NCBI GenBank assembly: GCA_030762175.1
Contig: CM060843.1
Location: forward strand, 26,979,501-27,043,500
Origin: Metallyticus violacea
Lineage: Eukaryota > Arthropoda > Insecta > Mantodea > Metallyticidae
Length of the DNA: 64,000 nucleotides
Direction: 5' to 3'
Shown here piece by piece: positions 6,501-61,440 of this stretch. How positions within the stretch are numbered: position 1 is the first letter of the stretch; each line of letters starts with the position of its first letter. The notes under the pieces were generated by a model that did not search any database, was not told the origin of the DNA, and saw only the letters and a list, made by a program, of their open reading frames with translations. A program made the translations under genes and the position numbers.

Positions 6501-7100
6501 TCATAACAGAAGCTACTTATCAAGGAAATCTAGAGCATTATTGTTTTAGTTTTGGGGAGTGGGAGTGGAAGGGTTTTAATAGGTATCTCATGGTGCTTAA
6601 GGGGGATGCGGAAGAGGTCTTGTAAAGTATGAGACTTTTGGTACACCTCATGAGTTCCTTCTCCAGGCTCTGTCTTCTTCCTCGCTGTTCCCAGGAATCC
6701 TCGGAGTTCCCCGCCTCGCTGGTGTTGAAGACGAAGGAAAGGTTCCTTCCCCGCCCTGACTATGATGTAATTGACTGGTGCGTTTTGGAGTTGCCTGAGC
6801 GTCCACGGTAGGAGATGGAAAAGGACTCGTTCAGTTAGAAACACTCACATTAAAGTTGATCACTAGAAGTTACTTTATTTAACATTCAGATAAAAATGTT
6901 ATGACTCCGAATAACCACTGCGTTACATTGTTAAGTGTGCTGTGTCTTTCAACACAGTTACATCCAACTATACAACTCTCGCTCATCTGGATCACTAAGG
7001 CTGTTTCCACTTGTTAATATCCCGTACTTAATCAAACGGAAGGTAGCTGGAGCACGGCATATTTCACACTGTTCTCATGTACTCTATGGAATGAATGAGA
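3536..7100. other. Long stretch without recognised gene
   Basis: A weak tRNA B-box-like sequence on the minus strand near 3930-3960 is too degraded to call. Around 6425-6844 several short frames (60-104 codons) stay open together on both strands in slightly GC-richer DNA, but none shows a known motif. The rest is AT-rich with scattered short frames. Confidence 0.5.
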
Positions 7101-7375
7101 CGTGTTTAACCCCCGTTTTTGCTACAGAGGCACCATAGGCGATGGACACTGATGATACATGAAATGAAATGATATATTGGGAAAGGATGATTTGTTTTTA
7201 ACGAAGGAATCATTCCAGGTCTAAGTTCAGGGTACTTCCCTGGCATTTGCTATTTATGAGGACTGAGGAAAACCTGGAAAATACCTTAGTCTGGAAGGAC
7301 GGTCCTGGCGGGATTCGAACCCCAGACCTCCAGCTCATGATTCCGCCTTAATGACCTCGGCTACCCGTGGCGGTA
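7101..7375 (-). repeat. SINE-A, reverse copy
   Basis: Read on the minus strand it has the SINE-A tRNA-like head (CCGAGGTCATTAAGGCGG near 7350), the B box GGTTCGAATCCCGCC near 7320, and the conserved AGGACCGTCC block. Its 3' end contains TGATACATGAAATGAAATGA and the terminal TTAAACACG near 7101. I could not define a convincing target duplication. Confidence 0.85.
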
Positions 7376-7450
7376 CACTATCGAGGAAAGGTAATAAGAA
7401 TATCTTATTGATTTTTACTGCTACTTTCTCAAACTGTCCGCTCTGCCGAC

Positions 7451-7490
7451 ACACTGGGCAACAAAAAAATAATTTTTGAATGTTTCGAGC
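7451..7490 (+). repeat. Left terminal inverted repeat of CYICGE element
   Basis: ACACTGGGCAACAA followed by an A/T spacer and AATGTTTCGAGC. It pairs with the sequence at about 8755-8784. Confidence 0.75.
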
Positions 7491-7760
7491 ACTTCATGAG
7501 GCAATTCCTACTAATTTTGGGTTGAGAAAAACAAATATGACAAGAAAAAATTTTATTAGCTCTAGTTTCTATGATATACACAAGGTGGAAGTATTACATA
7601 TTAACGGATTGAGAGAAACGGATACATTTTAATTACATACATGCTAACAACAATGAAAGTGCATTTCATTTTTTTAACTGGTAATTACATGCTAAGAGTT
7701 CTAAATTGCTGGAAAAATACTTCGCAGATAGTCGTGTCTGAAGAGAATCATGTGGTGGGC

Positions 7761-8446
7761 CTATTGACTTCGTCGTCTTTTAGCTTGCCTCTTGTGATGG
7801 AGTTCCGCAGAATCCCTATACAAGACCAACAGTAATCCGCAAGCATTACTTAATTCCAACGGCCCTGATATCTTTGTTCCATAACAGAAATGTCCTGATG
7901 GAATCTCTCCCCATGTTCATCACTAACAGCTCGACAACTAGGAGGGAAAAAGTCTAGGTGGGAGTGGAGTAAATGGATCTTAAGGGACATGTTGCATCCA
8001 AGGTTACGGTATTTTTGCAGGACCACTGTCACCAAATGCTTGTAGTTGTCATCTCTTTTGTTGCCCAAAAATCCATGAAGAACACCCTTGAAGGCTTCCC
8101 AAGCTTCCTTTTCTTTCCCCTCCAAAACTTGGTCAAATGCAGGATCCTTTACAAGTTCTCTTATTTGTGGTCCGACAAAAATATCTTCCTTAACTTTTGC
8201 ATCACTTAATTTCGAAAATTTCTCTCTAATGTACTTAAAGGCCCGTCCTTCTCGGTTCATAGCTTTGACAATAGCTTTCATCAAACCCAGCTTGATATGC
8301 AGGGGTGGAAGAAGAACGTCTTTTGGGTTCACAAGAGGCTTGGCAGTCTTTACAAGAGGCTTCAGATTGCGTTTCTGTGAGGAAAATGTTATTTCACCAC
8401 AAATATAACAAAATTTATTCACCATATTTACACATTTTCGTGGCAT
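7761..8446 (-). pseudogene. CYICGE / DEHGERFHQD family protein, internally deleted and broken
   Basis: A 198-codon frame runs from the ATG at 8446 to a stop at 7850-7852. The N-terminus reads MPRKCVN then FCYICGE, a Cys-pair start known from a multicopy family of uncharacterised arthropod proteins. The C-terminal half carries VLLPPLHIKLGLMKAIVKAM, then FVGPQIREL, GFLGN, then NMSLKIHLLHSHLDFFP and SDEHGERFHQDI. Full-length relatives have several hundred residues between these parts, including CC...C and CYFC metal-binding-like motifs seen in the second copy at 51.6 kb. Here that middle is missing and PLVK is joined directly to PLVNPKDVLLPP. After the first stop the frame continues with MLADYCW, then shifts frame to reach SAELHHKRQAKRRRS and a final stop near 7761. 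So it has an internal deletion, a stop and a frameshift. Molecular function is unknown. Confidence 0.8.
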
Positions 8447-8754
8447 GTTTACAAATTTTACACTAAAAAAAGCACTCGCGAACCAGAAATTTTGCTTTAA
8501 TTTGAGTAGAAACTACATGTAATTCACAGTTACAGCAACAGTATCTATGTTTATGACTTACAAACAGCTGAAGAGCATTTGTGTTTTGTTATTTGACAGG
8601 TGTGCCAACTCCCAAAAAAAATTCCCCGAAATTTAAAATCTTCACTCTAAAAAATGAAATGTCACTTTATCTTCAAAACAAGAGCTAATCTATCATTTCT
8701 ATGGTGATTTTTGAATTCAGCAGATGGAAATACATGCAAATTCACTATTTTTAA

Positions 8755-8784
8755 GCCCGAAACATTTTCATTGTTGCCCAGTGT
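8755..8784 (-). repeat. Right terminal inverted repeat of CYICGE element
   Basis: The reverse complement reads ACACTGGGCAACAATGAAAA then TGTTTCGGGC, matching the left end at 7451-7490. Confidence 0.75.
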
Positions 8785-9654
8785 TATCCAAGAACTGCCT
8801 CGAATTGCTGGGGCCTCCCTGTTTTATCAAACGTTCAGTCCGAACGTCTCCTGACGCCATAAACATTAGGCGTCACAATGTTCAAGTATTATGGAAGCGA
8901 TTTCTTTTCTCCACATTGGTTTCTGGATTCGCGGCATCCCTTGTCATTGGTCGCTTATTTCGAGCTTCTGGGACTGCCGTTGCTCTTTCTGCAAAGTTCT
9001 CTCACCTAAATTTACGCAACACATAGTAATACACGTTTATATGTCCTTGAAGAAGGAGCTAGGGTTCTAACTATCACAAAAGATAAATGTTCCTCCCTTC
9101 TTCGTCTTTGGAAAATTTCCATCCGGAGTGTTTACGGTCCTTGCCTGGCAAAGAGGCCATAAATACATTCATTTGTTATTCAATCTCCCTTCCCCTCGAC
9201 ATTCCTAAGTGCACAAACTTTTTATTTTACACTTTCTCTTCCAAGGAAAATATAAAATCCTGGTTAATTCGAATATGTTAGACTTTCCAGAAATATTAGA
9301 TAATTTATCAATATATATTGCATTTAAATACTTTCAGCCGTGGTTACAATTTAAGTTGCTTGTGATAATAACATTTCGGTCTCGTTTTCAATAATAGCTA
9401 GTGATGCTTTTTTTTTTTTTCCAGTAAAGTTGTTAATGCCTCAGACTGCATATTTGGCGAAACTCTGGCTTTCACAGAACATTGCAAAGTACCAAATCTA
9501 GGAATGGCGGTATAATAAAATAGTAATAGCCGCACGGATGCTTTTATAATTCTCTTACATCTCTTACACTAGATATTTGACAGTAAAATATAATATAATA
9601 GCATAAAACATTAAATTAAATGTCAAAAAAAATAAACAGTACCAATACCACACA
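8785..9654. other. C/T-skewed sequence, no gene recognised
   Basis: The plus strand is rich in C and T and poor in G, especially 9050-9250. The same bias resumes beyond the mariner insertion at 10240-10960. Frames of 60-100 codons are present without known motifs. It may be one old repeat split by the mariner. Confidence 0.4.
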
Positions 9655-16527: not shown

Positions 16528-16736
16528 CTCTCAGAGGCCTCTTCTTTCAGGTTTGAGGTTCTTTTTCGTGCCGTAAATGTACGACACGGGACCCACAGCT
16601 TTACTTTCCTTCCGAAGGAAGCCATACTTAGAATTTTTACGCCCGAAAAAAATCCATCGATCCTGGACGGGTTCGAACCCGCGACCTTGGATTTAGAAGG
16701 CAAGTACACCCCCCCCCCTCCCAGGACCGACAGCTG
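16528..16736 (-). repeat. SINE-B, reverse copy lacking its 3' tail
   Basis: On the minus strand it has the SINE-B head with B box GGGTTCGAACCCG near 16670-16683. The conserved blocks CGTGTCGTACATTTACGGCACG and AACCTCAAACCTGAAAGA follow. It stops at GAGGCCTCTGAGAG near 16528, whereas complete copies continue another 100 bases. A run of 10 C at 16711-16720 interrupts the region between the A and B boxes. Frames of 99 (minus) and 82 (plus) codons across it are incidental. Confidence 0.8.
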
Positions 16737-20159: not shown

Positions 20160-20420
20160 CACCTCAAAGCCTTTGGGCATGAATTCTTAAGCGGGAGATC
20201 TGAGGTTTGACTCCCATCAGGACCGTCCTTCTTCTTGACTAAGAATTTCTAGAGATTTTGCTAAACCCTCATAAATGGTAAATCCCTAGAGGGAGCCCTA
20301 AACTTCACTTGGAACGTTTCCTTTCTTTAAAATAAACAAATAAATAAGTAAATAAATCCTCAATATATAATTTTATCTCATGCATCACCAGTAAGCTGAG
20401 GACATTTGGACATTAAAATG
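20160..20420 (+). repeat. SINE-A, diverged copy
   Basis: It shows TTAAGCGGGAGATCTGAGGTTT, the block AGGACCGTCCTTCTTC, then CCTCATAAATGGTAAATCCC and CTTGGAACGTTTCCTTTC as in the other copies. The 3' end is replaced by an A/T-rich (AAATAAAT) expansion and diverges after ATCTCATGCATCACCAGT, so the terminal tail is degraded. Confidence 0.8.
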
Positions 20421-22639: not shown

Positions 22640-23100
22640 TAAATAGATAGGCCTGTAGTGATAGTAAAAAGTTCATCTCGATCTAACGTTTCGTCACGCA
22701 CTGTGGCTGACATCTTCAGAAGAATAAGTTATGTAGTCATCTATCTGCTTGAAGACTGTTTCTTGGCGTGAGGCTTAACTGTGAACAGTAAAGGTTAAAG
22801 GTCTGACATGAAGGAGCAAATAGGAAAGGGGTGCCAAGTTCATGTCGATATTGCTCGTCGAATGGAATGTTCCCACGTTAGGCAAAAGGTGGAATCCACG
22901 TTCGATTTTTTTCCGCTTTTTTATCAATGTTATGTGGATATTTGTGTCTTCGTAAAGCATGCAGTGATATTATCACATCTGATGAAATAATATGTTCAGT
23001 AGCACAGCTGATTTTTCTATATGTCTCAGGTGACAATTCCTTTTTATGTTTCGCAATAGTTTTAATGCCAAATTTCACTGGTTTCTACGAACACTTTCCC
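22640..23100 (-). mobile_element. Penelope-like element, 3' end, reverse copy
   Basis: On the minus strand a decayed frame (about 23078-22870) ends in AEKNRTWIPPF, the W-P---- motif that closes the GIY-YIG endonuclease domain of Penelope-like elements. The downstream untranslated part ends in a hammerhead-like motif (22688-22719). It is the inverted paralogue of 24480-25060: both share KNRTWIP / INRTWIP, QYR or DQYRHEL-like sequence and the CACAGTGCGTGACGAAAC tail. The reverse transcriptase part is absent or unrecognisable. Confidence 0.65.
22685..22722 (-). ncRNA. Hammerhead-ribozyme-like motif in Penelope 3' region
   Basis: On the minus strand CTGAAGA (22713-22719) fits the CUGANGA core. 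A 4-base stem GTCA / TGAC encloses GCCACAGTGCG, and CGAAAC (to 22688) supplies the GAAA core strand. Penelope-like elements are known to carry hammerhead motifs in their terminal repeats. Activity is not shown. Confidence 0.5.
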
Positions 23101-23374
23101 GCATACGTACGGGTTTCTGTACACACCTGCAAATAACAAGGGATAATGTAGATCGTTGACATTGTGCAGACCCTGTTGTTACAGAAAATCCATGCATACC
23201 AACCGCTATATACACAGAAATTCTAACCATCATCCACAACAAAATAGATTAAAAACTATAACTATACCCTGACAACAGTATCTACCAACTGATTTCTTCA
23301 AGAAGAGGTAAATCATTTAGAATTCACTCTCACCAAAAGCTCACCAATGGAATTTAGAAATATATACCATCACG

Positions 23375-23416
23375 ACACACACACACACACACAAATATAT
23401 ATATATATATATATAT
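23375..23416. repeat. Microsatellite (CA)n then (AT)n
   Basis: About nine CA units followed by about eleven AT units. Confidence 0.9.
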
Positions 23417-23545
23417 TTGTAATCATTTATAGTACATAGTATATATAGTATATATTTACTATGTACTAAAAATGAAAAATAAAATGAATGTTGAAGCAAT
23501 GTAGCAAATATAAAAAACACTAGATAAGCAGAAGTAGATAAAGCA

Positions 23546-23612
23546 TAGTTTTATTTCGTCAAAATAACTAGTGAGAGGCTTGGTTACTGAATAAAGGTTA
23601 TTAGGTTTAAAC
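23546..23612 (+). repeat. Direct repeat Y, copy 2
   Basis: AGTTTTATTTCGTCAAAATA then ACTAGTGAGAGGCTTGGTTA and CTGAATAAAGGTTATTAGGT matches 22224-22303 with few differences. Confidence 0.8.
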
Positions 23613-24479
23613 ACCTAACGCATCAAAATAATGCAAACATTCCAATATTTGAACCGCTTGTTTTCAAATTATTATTTGTATATCAATAATAGTAAACTAC
23701 CTCCTTGAGTGTAATAATGTGACAAACTATAGCAGGTGAGAAATAGTTTATGAATGACGTTTCTACTGCCACGTGGCCACGTCAGTACCTGTTAATATAT
23801 CCCATCATTTCCTAAAAGTCCTCAGCGGGTGCACACCAAGATCACCATCAACTTCTTCTTCTTGCTCCTCTAAGATTTAAAACATATTTTACATTCCACA
23901 TTTATCCTTGTTATAGTATATTTTTACATGTATGACAAAAACACACATGTCCTTACATAATTGAACATTTGATCTTAAATATTTTCCACGATTATGCTTT
24001 CAAAATTGTTGTAATGGTAGCAAAATTGCTTTGACTGCCGCAGAATCTAGTAGTGTCATCTAGTGGCAGAAATCATAAGGTAGACTTGGATGTAATGGCG
24101 CGAAAGAGTAGCCTATATGAAAACAACAGGTACGCGTAGGAAAATGTGCACTTTTGATAAAAAAAAAAGCCTAAAGAATCACTTTTTGTTTGATAAGTGA
24201 TAAAAGGTACCACTACTACCCTTAATAATAAACTTGCATGCAAAAAATTAGATCGGTGCACGCACTTGAAAATCCACTGGTACTTGGTAATTTTAAACCT
24301 TTTAACTTCGTAGTAGCAACATCGATGATGTCATGCTTTGGACGATAATATGTTTTTGTTACCTGATTAGACGACCCTCTAGCCAGCTTAGTAGCCGGCA
24401 TAAAATTGGCACAAGTGTCAATCACAAACTAAATTTAAGGATCAAGATTATTTTTCTGCCAAAAACAAAAATATAACAT
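23613..24479. other. No gene recognised
   Basis: AT-rich sequence upstream of the plus-strand Penelope fragment. I looked for reverse-transcriptase motifs in all frames and saw none. Confidence 0.45.
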
Positions 24480-25060
24480 AATCTGCGCAGTGTCAAGGAC
24501 TCACTGATCCCCTGATATCTACAGATGTCTACAGAATTCCGTGCAACTGCGGGAAAGTGTAAGTAGGAACCACAAAACGCAGCATTAAGACCTGTATTTC
24601 GGAACATGAAAGAATCTCGCCTGGGATTAATTTTCTATCACAGGTAGAGGAATCAGCTGTTGCTGAGCATGTTATTACACCAGATAATCTCTGAATATCT
24701 TACGAAGACACCGAAGTACTTGACAGTATCAAAAGCTACTATAGCAAACTTTATAGGGAAGCAATAGAAATATTTAAACAGTCGTATAACATTAATACAA
24801 AATAAGGACTTAAAAATAAATCGAACGTGGATTCCAGCACATTGCATAACATTCCAACTGACGATCAATATCGACATGACCTTGGCATCTATTTTCTAAT
24901 CTCACCTTCCTAAGTCACGCCTTCAATTTCGACTATTCACAGCTCAAGAAACAGTCGAAAATAGTCGAGCTGCATAATTTAATCCTCTGATGATGTCTAC
25001 CACAGTGCGTGACGAAACATTAGGTCGAGATGAACATTTTATGAATACTATACCACTGCC
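24480..25060 (+). mobile_element. Penelope-like element, 3' end with GIY-YIG domain relic
   Basis: Across frame changes the plus strand reads STEFRATAGK / VYRIPCNCGKV, then TTKRSIKTCISEHERIS, then ESAVAEHVITPDNL, then EVLDSIKSYYSKLYREAIEI and INRTWIPAH. This order (Y-I-C-CGK-Y-G-T-R----R--EH, S--AEH, REAIEI, W-P) is the GIY-YIG endonuclease of Penelope-like retroelements. It has in-frame stops and at least two frameshifts, so it is dead. The tail carries a hammerhead-like motif at 24987-25018. The fragment points away from its inverted paralogue at 22640-23100. Confidence 0.75.
24985..25020 (+). ncRNA. Hammerhead-ribozyme-like motif in Penelope 3' region
   Basis: CTGATGA (24987-24993) is a perfect hammerhead core. 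GTC / GAC can form a short stem around the ACCACAGTG region, and CGAAAC ends at 25018. It is the same motif as 22685-22722 with one stem mismatch. Known family context supports the assignment; cleavage is not shown. Confidence 0.5.
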
Positions 25061-25981: not shown

Positions 25982-26256
25982 ACTATGCCTAACACCGCCA
26001 CGTGTGGCCGAGGTCGTTATGGCGCGGACTCGTGAGCGGGAGGTCTGGGGTTCGTATCCCGCCAGGACCGTCCTCATAAATGGCAAATTCCGGGGAGGTA
26101 CCCTAAACTTAGGCCTGGAACGACTCTTCCTTTAAATATAAACCCTTTCCCAATATATCATTTCTTCTCATATATTATCAGTGTCCATCGCCTGTGGTGC
26201 TTCAGTAGTAAAAACGGGCGTTAAACACCATTCATTCATTCATACTATGTCTAACA
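25982..26256 (+). repeat. SINE-A, best-preserved head, with target duplication
   Basis: The element at about 25995-26243 is flanked by ACTATGCCTAACA (25982-25994) and ACTATGTCTAACA (26244-26256). The head GTGGCCGAGGTCGTTATGGC has a class-II (Ser/Leu-like) A box, and GGGTTCGTATCCCGCC is the B box. The tail is CGGGCGTTAAACACCATT with extra CATT units. Confidence 0.9.
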
Positions 26257-37208: not shown

Positions 37209-37430
37209 AAGACTGTTTGCTTTTTTTTTTTTTTTTTTTTTTTGAATGATTTATTTATGAACGCTCTTTAACAGCTCAGGTCATCAGCGTCCCATTCAAC
37301 TCAGGGCGTGAAACGGCCGACAAATTTTTCTCAGAGGCCTCTCTTTCAGACTTGAGGTTCTTTATCGTGCCGTAAATGTACGACACGGGACCCACGGCTT
37401 TACTTTCCTTTCGAAGGAAAGACTGTTTGC
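37209..37430 (-). repeat. SINE-B, 5'-truncated, with poly-A and target duplication
   Basis: The 12-bp repeat AAGACTGTTTGC flanks it at 37209-37220 and 37419-37430. Next to the left copy is a run of about 23 T, the poly-A tail on the minus strand. The body runs from the 3' end (GGACGCTGATGACCTGAG on the minus strand) to CTTCCTTTCGAAAGGAAAG and lacks the tRNA-like head. It is a textbook 5'-truncated insertion. Confidence 0.9.
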
Positions 37431-41822: not shown

Positions 41823-42343
41823 CGATACGGGTAGTCAAAATAGTTAAGGCATGGACTAGTGAGCGGGAGATTTGTGGTTCAATTTTGATTTTCTTTTATT
41901 TACGAATGCTATTTAACATCTCAGGTCATCAGCGTCCCATTCTATTCAGGGCGTGAAACAATCGACAAATTTTACTCAGAGGCCTCTCTTTCAGGCTTGA
42001 GGTTCTTTATCGTGTCGTAAATGTACGACACGGTTCCTACGACTTTGCTTCCCTTCCGAAGGAAGTCATACTTAGGATTTTTACTCCCGAAAAGCCGGCG
42101 ATCTGCGGTTTAGAAGGCAAGTGTGGTTACCACTACGCTACTTCACCACCAGGACCGACTTGCGGTTCGAAACTCAACAGTACGTCCTTTTCAGGTTTTC
42201 TTCGGTCTTCATAAAAGGAAATTTTCGGGAAGGTAACCTAAACATAGGCCTGGAACACTTCCTTTCCAAATTTATAATTTAATTTTATGCTTTACCAATA
42301 AACATTGCCTGTGATGTCCACAACAGTAAAAATGTGCATTAAA
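41823..42343 (+). repeat. SINE-A, split by a nested SINE-B
   Basis: The left part (to 41882) has the head GTTAAGGCATGGACTAGTGA and GCGGGAGATTTG, up to the B box. The right part resumes at 42160 with TTGCGGTTCGAAACTC and continues through AGGCCTGGAACACTTCC to the family tail near 42320-42343. The two parts together give one normal SINE-A. Confidence 0.85.
41872..42171 (-). repeat. SINE-B nested in the B box of SINE-A
   Basis: A full reverse SINE-B (about 41883-42159) ends with CCACCAGGACCGAC, the start of the SINE-B head on the minus strand. Its flanks TTGTGGTTCAA (41872-41882) and TTGCGGTTCGA (42160-42170) are a duplicated target made from the SINE-A B box. SINE-B therefore inserted after SINE-A. 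Confidence 0.85.
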
Positions 42344-49995: not shown

Positions 49996-50290
49996 ATCTT
50001 AATATATACACCGCCACCGGTGGCCGAGATCGTTAACTCGTGAGCAGGAGGTCGGGGTTTTGAATCCCGCCAGGACCGTCCTTCCTGACTGAGGTTTTTT
50101 CCAGGTTTTCCTCAGTTCTCATAAATTGCAAATGTCGGGGAGGTACTCTAACTATGCCTGAAACGTTTCCTTCCTTAAAAAAAATCCTTTCCCAATTTAT
50201 CATTTCATCTCATGTATCATCAGTGTCCATCGCCTGTGGTGTCTCAGTAGTAAAAACGGGCGTTAAACACCATTAAAAAAATCTTAATAT
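49996..50290 (+). repeat. SINE-A with 10-bp target duplication
   Basis: ATCTTAATAT at 49996-50005 and 50281-50290 flank the element. The head GGTGGCCGAGATCGTTAAC has lost about 12 bases between the A and B boxes. B box GTTTTGAATCCCGCC, AGGACCGTCC and the tail CGGGCGTTAAACACCATT are well conserved. Confidence 0.9.
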
Positions 50291-51605
50291 GTTGCAATGG
50301 ACCTTGCGTCAGTGCACTTCCTGCAAACAAAGTCAATAAAATACAAACATTTATCCGTCATTGGTAGTCAATCAATGCAATAATACCTCAAAACGTCTTA
50401 AAACATTTGACAACGTAACCTAATTTCGTTAGCTTATCAAGTTTTTTATTATCGCCTAAAGATTCTTAATAATTTAACTAAAATGCGCCCAGGAGAAAAA
50501 ATAATCTGCAGCGATAAACTCCATGTCGGACTTAACGGATTGTCTGAATGCTGAAAAGGTATTTGGTACATAAGCTATTTAATAAAATGCTGGGATCTAG
50601 GACACTAATGCACTTGAAATAGCAAAAAGAAGTCAAGTATAATACAACCCAAGTGAAAATGCTATCCTTGGAACACTAGCAGAGAAATGTTCCCAACTGT
50701 TTAACCTACTCAGCTTAAGTGCTCGGGCGGGTGAAGAGCTGGAATCTGATGGAATAAAACGAAAATCAATAGAAGATGTTGGGTGGGGAAAGGATTTTCT
50801 CATTGCCATAAGGGAGATAGAAATTAATTCCCAGCTTTCTGCAATCTAAAACCGATTCGGAGGGGGACAGAAACAGAAGTAATTTGTTATAGGAAGGAAG
50901 AGTTGGAAAGCGGCAGACAAATGGAATGAGACTTGGGTTGGTAGTGCAGGATGAGTGCTTTTACTTGCAACTCCTGTTGTCTTCTAAGACTATGTAGGAT
51001 TGGAAAGGGTTTTCTACTTTTGCATTTTGCCTTCCCTCTTCATTCGGGAACGATTACGTCTTGCCGTCTTAATGTATGTACCTGTCATCGCCCACATAGC
51101 CGGATTTAGATGTAATGAAATTATGCACTAAAGTCGATGTTTTTTCTGTCTACCACAATAAGAAACACGATTTTTACCTCCGGGTAAACATGATTATTTG
51201 TTGTTAATTTTGATACGTAGAAACCGAATATGTCTCAGTTTTTATTTATTCTTGACTATGGCAAAAGCAATGCCATGTACGGAATATACAAGGTTTTGTT
51301 ATTATATTTTGTAGAATGGATGCTAAAACATAATTACTAGGTTTGATAATGCTTGCACTCGGCGAGCTTTGCAATCCCTAAATTGATAGTGTGGTGTGTC
51401 ACATACATCTTTATTATTAGAAGTCCCTTGCTGGGATGACGCGCCGGAGTGGATATTTGTATAAAATAAGAGTAAAACTTTGGATCTTTTAAAGTTGTTC
51501 TGAATGAAACGTTTGCTTCTAGTTTTGGTTTGATCATTTGGTCTAGTGCTGAGATTCTTTGAAGCATGGTGCAGTGCCTTTATTTGTATGTTCAGCATAG
51601 ATAAA
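50291..51605. other. No gene recognised
   Basis: Frames up to 91 codons (51323-51598, minus) show no known motif. No terminal inverted repeat for the following CYICGE-family relic is visible here. Confidence 0.5.
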
Positions 51606-53853
51606 AGTGGGAGATATCAGTGCCCTAATTATCCAGATACTAAAGTTATGATTGTGGAAAGTTCACACCAAAATCCCAAACGAAAAACAAATTACAAAAA
51701 CAGTTTACTTTCTCCACTTTGGCTGCTAAATTGTTGATCAAGATAAAAAGCGGACCCCGGAGCATTGTTACGTTGCTCGTACTTGTAGAAGTTATTTGAG
51801 ACAGTGGTTATACAGGAGATTAAATTCCTCACCATTCGCAGTACCTATGATTTGTTGGGAACATCAAAACCACGTGAAAAAGTGTTATTTTTGTACTGTA
51901 AAAAAAGTATTAGGTTTGACTAAGAAAACAAAGTTAAATGTTATTTATCTAAATGTGCTATTACCAATTAGACCAGCCTCTCATAGCGAAACTTTGCAAG
52001 TACCAGTTCTCCCAAAGTAATTTTAAAATATTGATAGTAACATAAGTGGTGCATCAAATAATAAGTTCTTCAACACATGAATCTTCCTATACTAGAAATG
52101 TGTCATTGCAGTTCAACAATAAGGCTTAGATGAGTTAGTCCCAAATTTAAATTTGGGGGAAAAAACAAGAAGAGATTTTGAGATTTTGGAGGCTGCAGCA
52201 GCGGAATATGCTTGCTGGCTATATACAGACTATAAGAACTGGTTTGTTTCCCAGTTTGATATAAGCAAATTTAAAGGAGGATATTTTCATTGGCTACAGA
52301 TAAGGAAGCGTTTAAAACACGAATTTTTTTAAAGTACGCTAACAAATGTGCAACTATTGGCCTAGGCGCATTTAAGGCTATTGTGAAAGGGTTTCTCGGC
52401 AACAGAAAAAATGAATAATATGCATCTTTAGTAGAAGCATTACTACATTTTTTAAAGCTGAAGCAGGAAATAATGCTGCCTTTATTAATTTAATAAATAA
52501 AGCCTGCAAAGTTATATTTGTAAAGGCATTAGATTTGATAAGGATAATTGTTATGTATATATATAAGAAAATCATTTTGAGATAGGTATAACAGGAATAG
52601 AAATAATTTGTAATTTGTAACATACAATAGAATTTTGTATACATTTTGTGTAAAATCTGTGAGAAAGACGAATATGTACCTGGCTCTCCACTGACTGACC
52701 GCTCCTTAGACAAGGCTGCAGAAAGGGTAAACTATCTTTTGTTAGGTCACGAACCTTCTACCCAGGAAATACTTAGGAGTTGACAATAAGAGAAACATGT
52801 GGCCGTAACGGGACAGTATTTAACAAAGTCAGAGGTAGCAATAATTTAAGAGAAAATGAAAATGTCAGAACGGAGACGGAAATGTTTTATTACAGGAAAG
52901 CCGAAAACACGTGCGTTATCTCCGGGAACATTTAGGACTACAAACTAAGGAAGGCAAAAGATTTTCAATAGAAATCAGAATGTAAGGAAAGGGCCGAAAT
53001 TTATGACAGCTTGTTCTGGGAAAATTCAAGTTCGTGGGAAGACGTTAGATCAGGGGGGAAAGAATAATTCTAGCCAATGGTCATCGGATAAAAGTTAACG
53101 AACCAGGAGAACTTAGATACCAATAAATTTTAGGATAGCCAATCACGAACATATAACACAGAAATAGATAAAATACGAGGGAATTTAATTTAGCGAAAGG
53201 CGTGGCGAGGTAGTAGAAAAACTAGAGTACAGAAGTCAGGGGACAATCGGACATTCGCACTCAGTAGACACTCAAACATTCTTACAGTCAGTCATAGATT
53301 GAGATTCAGGCATTCGGTAGAGACACATTAATAGATTCAGAGGGACATTCAGACATCCAGATATTCACTCAGGAAGCCAGTCTAAGTGTGTAGTGAGGTC
53401 AGCTACGAGCCGTCAGGAAGTAACCTGCCAAATTATTAAATAAAGTAAATGTTCAAACAGTGCCGGACGTATTAATACACCGAACAATCTCCTTCCCCCC
53501 CTAACGACTTTCAAGTCGTTAAAAACAGTCCAAATTTACCCTGAGAACACACTAATCAATCCCCCCTAATAGTGGAACCCATATTAACCGTTCCAAATTG
53601 GCGACCAACTGTGGGGGCACAATAAAATAACCGTTCCAAAGCAATGGTTATTAAGATATCACTAAAAGTGAATTTCCTCCATTCACACTCAGGCTTTTAT
53701 CCTCAAAATGTTGGTACTGTAAATGATGGACAGGAAGAGAATTTTCATCATGACATAGCAGCAATTGAAAAGCGTAATCAAGGTTGTTGGGGTTCTGCAA
53801 TTTTGGAGGATTATTATTGGTTTCTGAAGAGAGACAATAATTCTGACTAAAGA
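51606..53853 (+). pseudogene. CYICGE-family protein, second copy, split by an LTR
   Basis: Read through frame changes, the start is RYQCPNYPDTK then YDCGKFTPKSQ (compare CYICGEFT-KSQ). TKTVYFLHFGC follows, then DQDKKRTPEHCYVARTCRSY, LRQWLYRRLNSSPFAVPMIC and KKCYFCTVKK (about 51690-51905). This keeps the Cys/His motifs deleted from the 7.8-kb copy. Near 52370-52450 AFKAIVKGFLGNRKNE matches the FKGVLHGFLGN segment. About 1.2 kb of foreign DNA follows. The last part, ISLKVNFLHSHSGFYPQN then GQEENFHHDIAAIEKRNQG and YYWFLKRD (53644-53850), restores the C-terminus. Stops, frameshifts and the insertion make it dead. The middle third (known in relatives) is largely missing. Confidence 0.75.
52798..53640 (+). 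mobile_element. LTR remnant, family L-like, copy 3, inside the CYICGE copy
   Basis: It starts TGTGGCCGTAACGGGACAG, like TGTAGCCC...AACGGGACAG of the 34.7-kb copy. It ends at CCGTTCCAAATTGGCGACCA then ACTGTGGGGGC (TGG at 53599), a Gypsy-type primer-site boundary. A (T)CAG/ACATTCAGACA-rich tract lies at 53240-53390. The phrase AACCGTTCCAAA recurs 40 bases later (53629-53640), exactly where the interrupted protein resumes. It may be a solo LTR with extra leader. The 350 bases before it (52450-52797) are also foreign to the host frame. Confidence 0.6.
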
Positions 53854-58126: not shown

Positions 58127-58446
58127 ACAGGAGAAATGAGTCGGTCCTGGTGGTGTAGTGGTAACCATACTTGCCTTCTAAACCCAAGATCGCGGGTTCA
58201 AACCCGGCTAAATCGATGGATTTTTTCGGGCGTAAAAATCCTAAGTATGGGCTTCCTTCGGAAGGGAAGTAAAGCCGTGGGTCCCGTGTCGTACATTTAC
58301 GGCACGATAAAGAACCTCAAGCCTGAAAGAGAGGTCTCTGAGCAAAATTTGTCGGCCGTTTTACGCCCTGAATTGAATGGGACGCTGATGTCGTGAGATG
58401 TTAAAGAGCGTCCATAAATAAATCAAATCAACAACAGGAGAAATGA
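58127..58446 (+). repeat. SINE-B, complete, tRNA-Gly-like head, 13-bp target duplication
   Basis: ACAGGAGAAATGA at 58127-58139 and 58434-58446 flank a full element. The head GGTGGTGTAGTGGTAACCAT then GCCTTCTAAACCC resembles tRNA-Gly (GGTGGTATAGTGG...GCCTTCC). B box GCGGGTTCAAACCCGGC. The body has CGTGTCGTACATTTACGGCA and the tail ends AATAAATCAAATCAACA. It is the reference copy for this family here. Confidence 0.92.
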
Positions 58447-59764
58447 AGATCCAAGAAATTGGAAATACAGCGATTACAAGTGTGACTTTCTCTTAGTGTT
58501 TTATCCATTTCTGTTTTTATAATTGCTGTTAATTTGTTACATTGTTAATAGTGTTACTTTATTTTTTATATAATATAAAAGATATGTATATATGATATCC
58601 CATAATCCCCGTACATTTCTAGTTATACTTTCTTGTACGTTCATAGCATGTATATATCATAGTGGTAACAACAGGTTTTGTGGATATATAAAATTATACT
58701 TTATATAAGTTTCTTTTCTTAATATATTTTGTAACATTTTCATTTACCGAATAACGAGCAAACGTAACATCCAATCGGTGCACCGTTTTTGATACATGCT
58801 CTTTTCCTGCTATATTTGGGTGTCTATATTAAATGTAATTTCTTTTAGCTGTTGGTATTGTGGATTGTTTAATCAACTGCTACTTTACTCAACCGTTACA
58901 GCGTAATGCGAGTTGCCTATGCTGACCCTTTTTAATAATAAATATACGTACATAAATGATATATAGGTAAACTAAAAGTTGTGTGATAATTGGTGTCAAA
59001 TGTTTTGGAGATATGTTGCCAACAACAAAACGTTTTAAAAAGTTCATATAAATATGGGCCTAAAATCCTTACTTTTAGAGTTACTATGGCTCTTTCCGTA
59101 TGTTTACCCCTGAAGACCAGTCTACTAGATTTTTAAAACCTTCTTTCTTTAAGTAGGCAATGGCGTTTATTTGCCGTTGTTTAATTGTCTTTTAGTGAGA
59201 AAATGACAAGAGTGTGTATTTGGTGAGTGAAATGGCAGATAGGGACTACATCTTTGGTATTGTAGATACGATGCATTAGAGGTACAAGAACTTTATACAG
59301 AAACGTATCCAGCTTGTGCAAGAACAGTCCAATGAATTCACCAACGTTTGTGAGAGATAAGCTCATTTTCTAGGGTTATGAATGTTCAGAAATCAAAAGA
59401 TGAAGGAATCTGTGAGCTTGAGGAGCGAGTTGTTTGTAATGTGGGCCAAAACGTATCAGATAGTACAAAAGAATTTGCATTAACGAAAGGAGTTAGTCAC
59501 ATGACTGGGAAATCTGCATTTGTTATTATCTCCAATTGGTACAAGGACTTAATGCGGCAAAATTTCGGCCATAAAGAAAACTCTACCAACGCCTACTACA
59601 GTGGTGTATTGTGCTTATGAGCATTTACCTTGTTCACTAATTGGATTAGCTTTTCACCTAACTGTATCTTCAAATATCATAACGTTAAAACCTGGACAAA
59701 TAAAAATACTAATGAAATACAATAGACAAATATTTTCAGAAATATAGTCTAGACGTTAGAGCTG
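58447..59764. other. No gene recognised
   Basis: AT-rich. An 80-codon frame at 59378-59620 lies just upstream of, and in the same direction as, the next transposase relic, but I could not match it to a transposase N-terminus. Confidence 0.45.
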
Positions 59765-61149: not shown

Positions 61150-61440
61150 GTCGGTCTTGGTGGCGTAGTGGTAATCATACTTGCCTACTAAACCCAAGAT
61201 TGCGGGTTCAAATGCGGCCAGGATCCATGGATTTTTTCGGGGCTTAAAAATCCAAAGTATACCTTCCTTGGAAATAAAACCGTGGGTCGCATGTCGTACA
61301 TTTACGGCACGAAAAAGAATCTAAAGTCTGAAAGAGAGGCTTCTGAGCAAAATTTGTTGGCCGTTTCACGCCCTAAGTTGAACGGGACGCTAATGACCTG
61401 AGATGTTAAAGAGAGTCCATAAATAAACCAAATAAAAAAA
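61150..61440 (+). repeat. SINE-B, complete but diverged
   Basis: Head GGTGGCGTAGTGGTAATCAT then GCCTACTAAACCC; B box GCGGGTTCAAATGCGG. The body has TGTCGTACATTTACGGCACG and the tail GAGTCCATAAATAAACCAAA then TAAAAAAA. It is about 290 bases and slightly deleted near 61265. No clear target duplication. Confidence 0.88.

Follow-up and report, generated by a model that had tools for sequence, protein, structure and literature searches.

The CMCT clade of cut-and-paste transposons is defined by C(2)C and H(3-4)H motifs between the second aspartate (D) and the glutamate (E) of the transposase, by target duplications of 2-5 bp and, for most elements, by CA..TG ends (PMC12730594). For Chapaev3, the published account gives CAC..GTG ends, a TWA target flanked by A and T in every element of the group that it covers, the motifs C(2)C, LH and H(4)H, an example of 2,289 bp encoding 556 amino acids, and genes mostly of a single exon; it also describes amplified miniature inverted-repeat transposable elements (MITEs) formed by internal deletion, repeated horizontal transfer and a wide range of animal hosts (PMC4079192). 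A Chapa-type N-terminal zinc domain is named as a further mark of Chapaev3 in another study (PMC4411706). In this work, we analysed a stretch of 64,000 nucleotides from the mantodean Metallyticus violacea (contig CM060843.1, positions 26,979,501 to 27,043,500; hereafter the window), in which the segment 7452-8783 is very probably one copy of a non-autonomous, internally deleted cut-and-paste transposon of the Chapaev3 type (CMC/CMCT clade).

Inverted ends, target sites and dispersed copies

An earlier note on this DNA, made from the sequence alone, had described a gene of an uncharacterised, common and multicopy arthropod family, bracketed by perfect 14-bp inverted repeats with a second inverted block inside. 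It proposed the layout of a DNA transposon, found neither an obvious superfamily nor a clear target duplication, and suggested searching other copies for inverted ends at a fixed distance, a constant duplication and empty sites. In the window, ACACTGGGCAACAA is present at 7451-7464 (+) and 8771-8784 (-) without a mismatch, and has no further exact match; the inner inverted block was found as well (Table 1). An exact inverted pair of 14-mers is by itself weak evidence, as it is not rare in the window: such pairs, spaced 200-4000 bp, occur at 13 other places, 3 of which lie within one long inverted repeat. Alignment of the two ends gave a score of 39, compared with a mean of 16.9 (standard deviation 4.5) for 2000 random window placements, 5 of which scored at least 39; placements overlapping real inverted repeats were kept in this null.

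The status of the segment as an element is settled because its ends recur in the same genome. A translated search of the 2.32-Gb genome (G000, the window being part of its contig C14) with the 198-residue protein gave 13,092 first-look candidates, of which 150 were scored, this number being a lower bound. All 150, the window copy included, match the query at 92-100% over all or nearly all of residues 1-198; thus, the shortened form itself has been amplified and is dispersed on many contigs. The DNA was read for 70 of these loci, the top of the list (L001-L070), and 67 of them carry both ends with at most 2 mismatches each, while L024, L026 and L070 are without one end by this criterion. The ends lie 1,316-1,352 bp apart in 63 of the 67 two-ended copies, a nearly fixed distance, and the transposon layout proposed earlier is supported.

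When the 13-mer CACTGGGCAACAA is taken as the repeat, identical 3 bp stand on both sides in 60 of the 67 copies (33 TAA, 24 TTA, 2 TAT and 1 ATA). When the right flanks were shuffled 2000 times among the copies, such matches averaged 27.7 and never exceeded 42. Flank matches of other lengths were few: 2 bp in one copy, 4 bp in two, and 5-10 bp in none. Around the 57 TTA/TAA sites an A stands on the left in 98% and a T on the right in 95%, and the preference extends to the palindrome RATWATY. The inverted repeat is therefore 13 bp long, not 14, because the outer A/T belongs to the TWA target site; the earlier note had placed the repeats correctly and was one base too generous. Its failure to see a clear duplication was true of the window copy, which keeps TTAT on the right and reads ACA on the left, but not of the family, in which a constant 3-bp duplication is evident.

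Uninterrupted sites, judged by sequence to be paralogous empty sites, were found for two copies. The joined flanks of L066 align across the junction to element-free copies of a repeat, including window 58442-58577, with 115 of 144 positions identical and no gap at the junction; those of L015, compared with element-free copies of the same repeat, again including window 58442-58577, match at 103 of 132, with 1-base gaps near the junction. At 58442-58577 this repeat adjoins a copy of another dispersed repeat of about 300 bp, present in the window at 16530-16706, 37237-37419, 41885-42160, 58139-58434 and 61150-61440, its copies being 79-94% alike.

A few loci are unusual in structure. In L017 (G000:C14:14663710-14667303) the ends are 2,328 bp apart, and the locus was considered as a full-length copy and rejected: it consists of two shortened copies joined head to tail that share one pair of ends and are flanked on each side by a TAA duplication. 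The deletion junction of the second copy is slightly different. The region of L072 and L073 (G000:C19:1360000-1377000) contains three element copies, spaced by about 5 kb, whose orientation alternates; each is without the first 224 bp and 98.3% like the consensus, which suggests local duplication of one copy. An open frame of 1,128 amino acids at C16:82811751, considered as a fusion gene, was rejected as a run of N.

The shortened transposase and its superfamily

The gene that the earlier note placed in an uncharacterised family does lie inside the ends and belongs to that family, but it is an internally deleted and broken transposase gene. Relative to P0158, the closest full-length relative (96% identical to the consensus over 193 amino acids), 332 codons (996 bp) are missing. 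The deleted part contains the C(2)C pair and both aspartates of the catalytic triad. In the window copy, moreover, a stop replaces a glutamate codon of the family consensus and is followed by a one-base deletion. Adding the 996 bp to 1,334 bp (with 14-bp ends counted) gives 2,330 bp as the probable length of a full element.

A protein search returned 3,286 matches at E <= 0.001, and among the 120 listed, relatives of 534-589 amino acids read as a single open reading frame (ORF). Of 96 near-full-length clusters picked by hand from these 120, 83 are on contigs of 1.9-2.9 kb, a figure without a control and thus only a hint. In 81 sequences of the family C333, C336, L381, H382, H490, D314, E509 and E512 are invariant and D260 and H495 nearly so; E512, as against E509, as the catalytic residue is a choice that we infer. 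The DDE triad is thus present together with the C(2)C, LH and H(4)H motifs of Chapaev3, and the protein of the window family descends from a transposase. General resources did not recognise it: a Pfam scan of the window protein and six relatives gave no match at E <= 10, an NCBIfam scan gave two weak matches, both below the cut-off, and a profile search of the PDB returned four chance-level matches (best E 0.088). With the queries used, no relative was found in viral contigs, prokaryote contigs or phage records, and searches of an open-licence library listed no paper naming this protein family in its title or the start of its abstract. A Foldseek search with the full-length predicted model gave no match at E <= 0.001; the catalytic core alone, also from a predicted model, gave a decisive fold match to the type of Transib and of RAG1, the recombinase of antibody genes.

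The marks of the CMCT clade are all present, namely C(2)C with H(3-4)H, CA..TG ends, a 3-bp duplication and a predicted fold of the RAG1 type. The Chapaev3 terminus 5'-CAC..GTG-3' is found in the CACTGGGCAACAA ends of the 67 two-ended loci. The superfamily, which the earlier note could not name, is Chapaev3 as judged by the published diagnostics; this label rests on TWA, LH and size, because CAC..GTG ends with 3-bp duplications also fit EnSpm/CACTA, which cannot be told apart from Chapaev3 by this pair of features. The element might instead belong to another lineage of the CMCT clade, be it EnSpm/CACTA, classical Chapaev or an unnamed lineage. Such an assignment draws on the ends and duplications given for EnSpm in PMC12730594, on the lack of Pfam matches among the scanned family members, and on the comparison with Chapaev3 having been made by description. 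We regard it as unlikely, since a TWA target flanked by A and T, the LH motif, a length of about 560 amino acids and a single ORF closely fit the Chapaev3 description.

Several observations weigh against the Chapaev3-type reading. Seven of the 67 copies, including that in the window, are without the duplication. The Chapa-type N-terminal zinc domain is only hinted at: comparison by hhalign of the N-terminal profile with one RAG1 fragment scored 21.4 (local) and 20.1 (global) at a probability of 6-10%, the best of 30 shuffles reaching 18.0. That the catalytic core folds like RAG1 and Transib is a prediction from a model. Finally, no full-length copy was seen among the 78 fetched loci, none of which contains the deleted middle of the transposase; this is expected because these loci were found with the shortened protein.

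A plausible mechanism for a Chapaev3-type element would begin with the binding of the ends by a full-length transposase of about 560 amino acids, which an element of about 2.33 kb would provide in trans. This enzyme would excise the element and insert it, by cuts staggered by 3 bp, at a TWA site flanked by A and T. The short form may have arisen by one internal deletion, probably through interrupted repair after excision, and would then have spread from one source copy.

Recent burst and the short reading frame

Sixty-five copies (the 67 with both ends minus L017 and L020, left out for length) yielded a consensus of 1,332 bp, from which they diverge by 1.2% on average (0.5-2.1%; the window copy 1.8%), and their mean pairwise divergence, 2.35%, is twice that value. 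Such star-like divergence is the signature of a burst from a single source copy; the copies were chosen as the most similar ones, and older ones may exist. The consensus frame is open over 228 amino acids; it is intact in 32 of the 65 copies, frameshifted in 13, cut by a premature stop in 17 and fails otherwise in 3.

A separate problem is a possible role of the short product. The KP form of the P element offers an analogue of a shortened product acting on the full transposase. By this analogy, the 228-residue product, which keeps the C-terminal part and has lost the catalytic aspartates, might act in trans on the full transposase in a dominant-negative or targeting manner and thereby shape its own burst, a possibility that we consider very improbable. 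It is also very improbable that either the host or the element has retained the shortened protein for a function, e.g. a regulatory one. Although the frame open in the consensus and intact in about half of the copies, and nonsynonymous changes below the expectation from non-coding parts (224 versus 334), would speak for it, stop codons in the short ORF are at the level expected without selection (22 observed versus 24.7, again from non-coding parts), a recent burst at such low divergence explains the open frames, and the window copy itself is broken. The shortage of nonsynonymous changes, like that of insertions and deletions (0.38 per kb in the ORF versus 3.71 in non-coding parts), is not interpretable as selection because the copies were picked by protein similarity, and purifying selection on the short ORF was set aside as a conclusion. 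A host gene merely lying between chance inverted repeats, to which the other exact 14-mer pairs of the window lend some colour, can be dismissed as refuted by the recurrence of the same ends, at near-constant distance and with the 3-bp duplication, on many contigs, and by the existence of uninterrupted sites.

Relatives, neighbouring repeats and comparison with known systems

The family is indeed common, but not confined to arthropods as had been supposed: named matches include frog, leech, tunicate and sea slug. A tree of 22 sequences, built on 191 columns of the C-terminal part common to them, places the leech sequence within a clade of seven rows that otherwise holds the window family and Periplaneta copies (100/99). 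This leech protein, P0218 of Helobdella robusta, matches the consensus at 84% identity over 178 amino acids, within the range of the Periplaneta sequences (80-86%). Its placement suggests horizontal transfer, contamination of the leech record being an alternative.

Table 1. Features of the element and of an older relative in the window
Feature	Position	Strand	Basis or remark
Whole element, 1,332 bp	7452..8783	(-), gene orientation	13-bp inverted ends here and in family loci
Inverted end CACTGGGCAACAA, gene 3' side	7452..7464	(+)	exact match; recurs at family loci
Inverted end CACTGGGCAACAA, gene 5' side	8771..8783	(-)	exact match; recurs at family loci
Subterminal inverted block, left arm	7555..7576		82% complementary to 8668-8689; also in consensus-end alignment
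Subterminal inverted block, right arm	8668..8689		pairs with 7555-7576; also in consensus-end alignment
Left target duplication place, reads ACA	7449..7451	(+)	duplication lost in window copy
Right target duplication copy, TTA (then T, as elsewhere in family)	8784..8786	(+)	comparison with other copies
Remnant transposase ORF, 198 amino acids	7850..8446	(-)	first 35 codons joined to C-terminal part
Internal deletion junction (~8341/8342), between two near-identical 14-mers	8328..8362	(-)	comparison with P0158
Older relic, P0158 residues 24-131	51691-52017	(+)	41%
Older relic, P0158 residues 443-468	52368-52445	(+)	
Older relic, P0158 residues 478-538	53656-53838	(+)	51%

The window also holds, at 51691-53838 (+), the remains of a second and much older member of this transposase family; they are interrupted between the matched parts, and no clear inverted ends were found there. 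A long imperfect inverted repeat at 22657-25057, about 2.4 kb across, has arms of about 340 bp, with GTTTCGTCACGCACTGTGG as an outer exact stretch, and contains no long ORF; it is possibly another non-autonomous inverted-repeat element. The dispersed repeat that adjoins the transposon (7089-7374; copies near 1541-1793, 20190-20392, 25994-26241 and 50010-50292) appears SINE-like (short interspersed nuclear element) from a tRNA B-box-like stretch near 7310, judged by eye.

The kind of element was already known, and what is gained is an identity for a common protein family that had carried no label, together with a well-defined recent burst. What stands in animal annotations as an 'uncharacterised protein' family can now be named transposase, and gene sets that count it among host genes are inflated. 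The CACTGGGCAACAA ends and the RATWATY target would allow a genome to be masked for the element. By its predicted fold, the family would also add an abundant animal relative to the RAG1/Transib group.

Among the known systems, Transib makes target duplications of 5 bp, a length seen in none of the 67 copies, and identity of the family to RAG1 and Transib (HzTransib) is only 10-14%. The first and second aspartates are 54 residues apart here, whereas about 108 residues separate them in RAG1. The P element and hAT duplicate 8 bp, which again no copy shows, and these two (hAT represented by Hermes) gave a clearly weaker fold match. EnSpm/CACTA shares the ends and the duplication length. Merrow, Garfield and Conan, the Chapaev3 elements of PMC4079192, appear closest, as judged by description. 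They share the CAC..GTG ends, a TWA target flanked by A and T, the motifs C(2)C, LH and H(4)H, a transposase of about 556 amino acids mostly in a single exon, amplified deletion derivatives and a wide animal range; the derivative described here, 1.33 kb with a consensus frame of 228 amino acids, differs from their MITEs of under 600 bp (PMC4079192).
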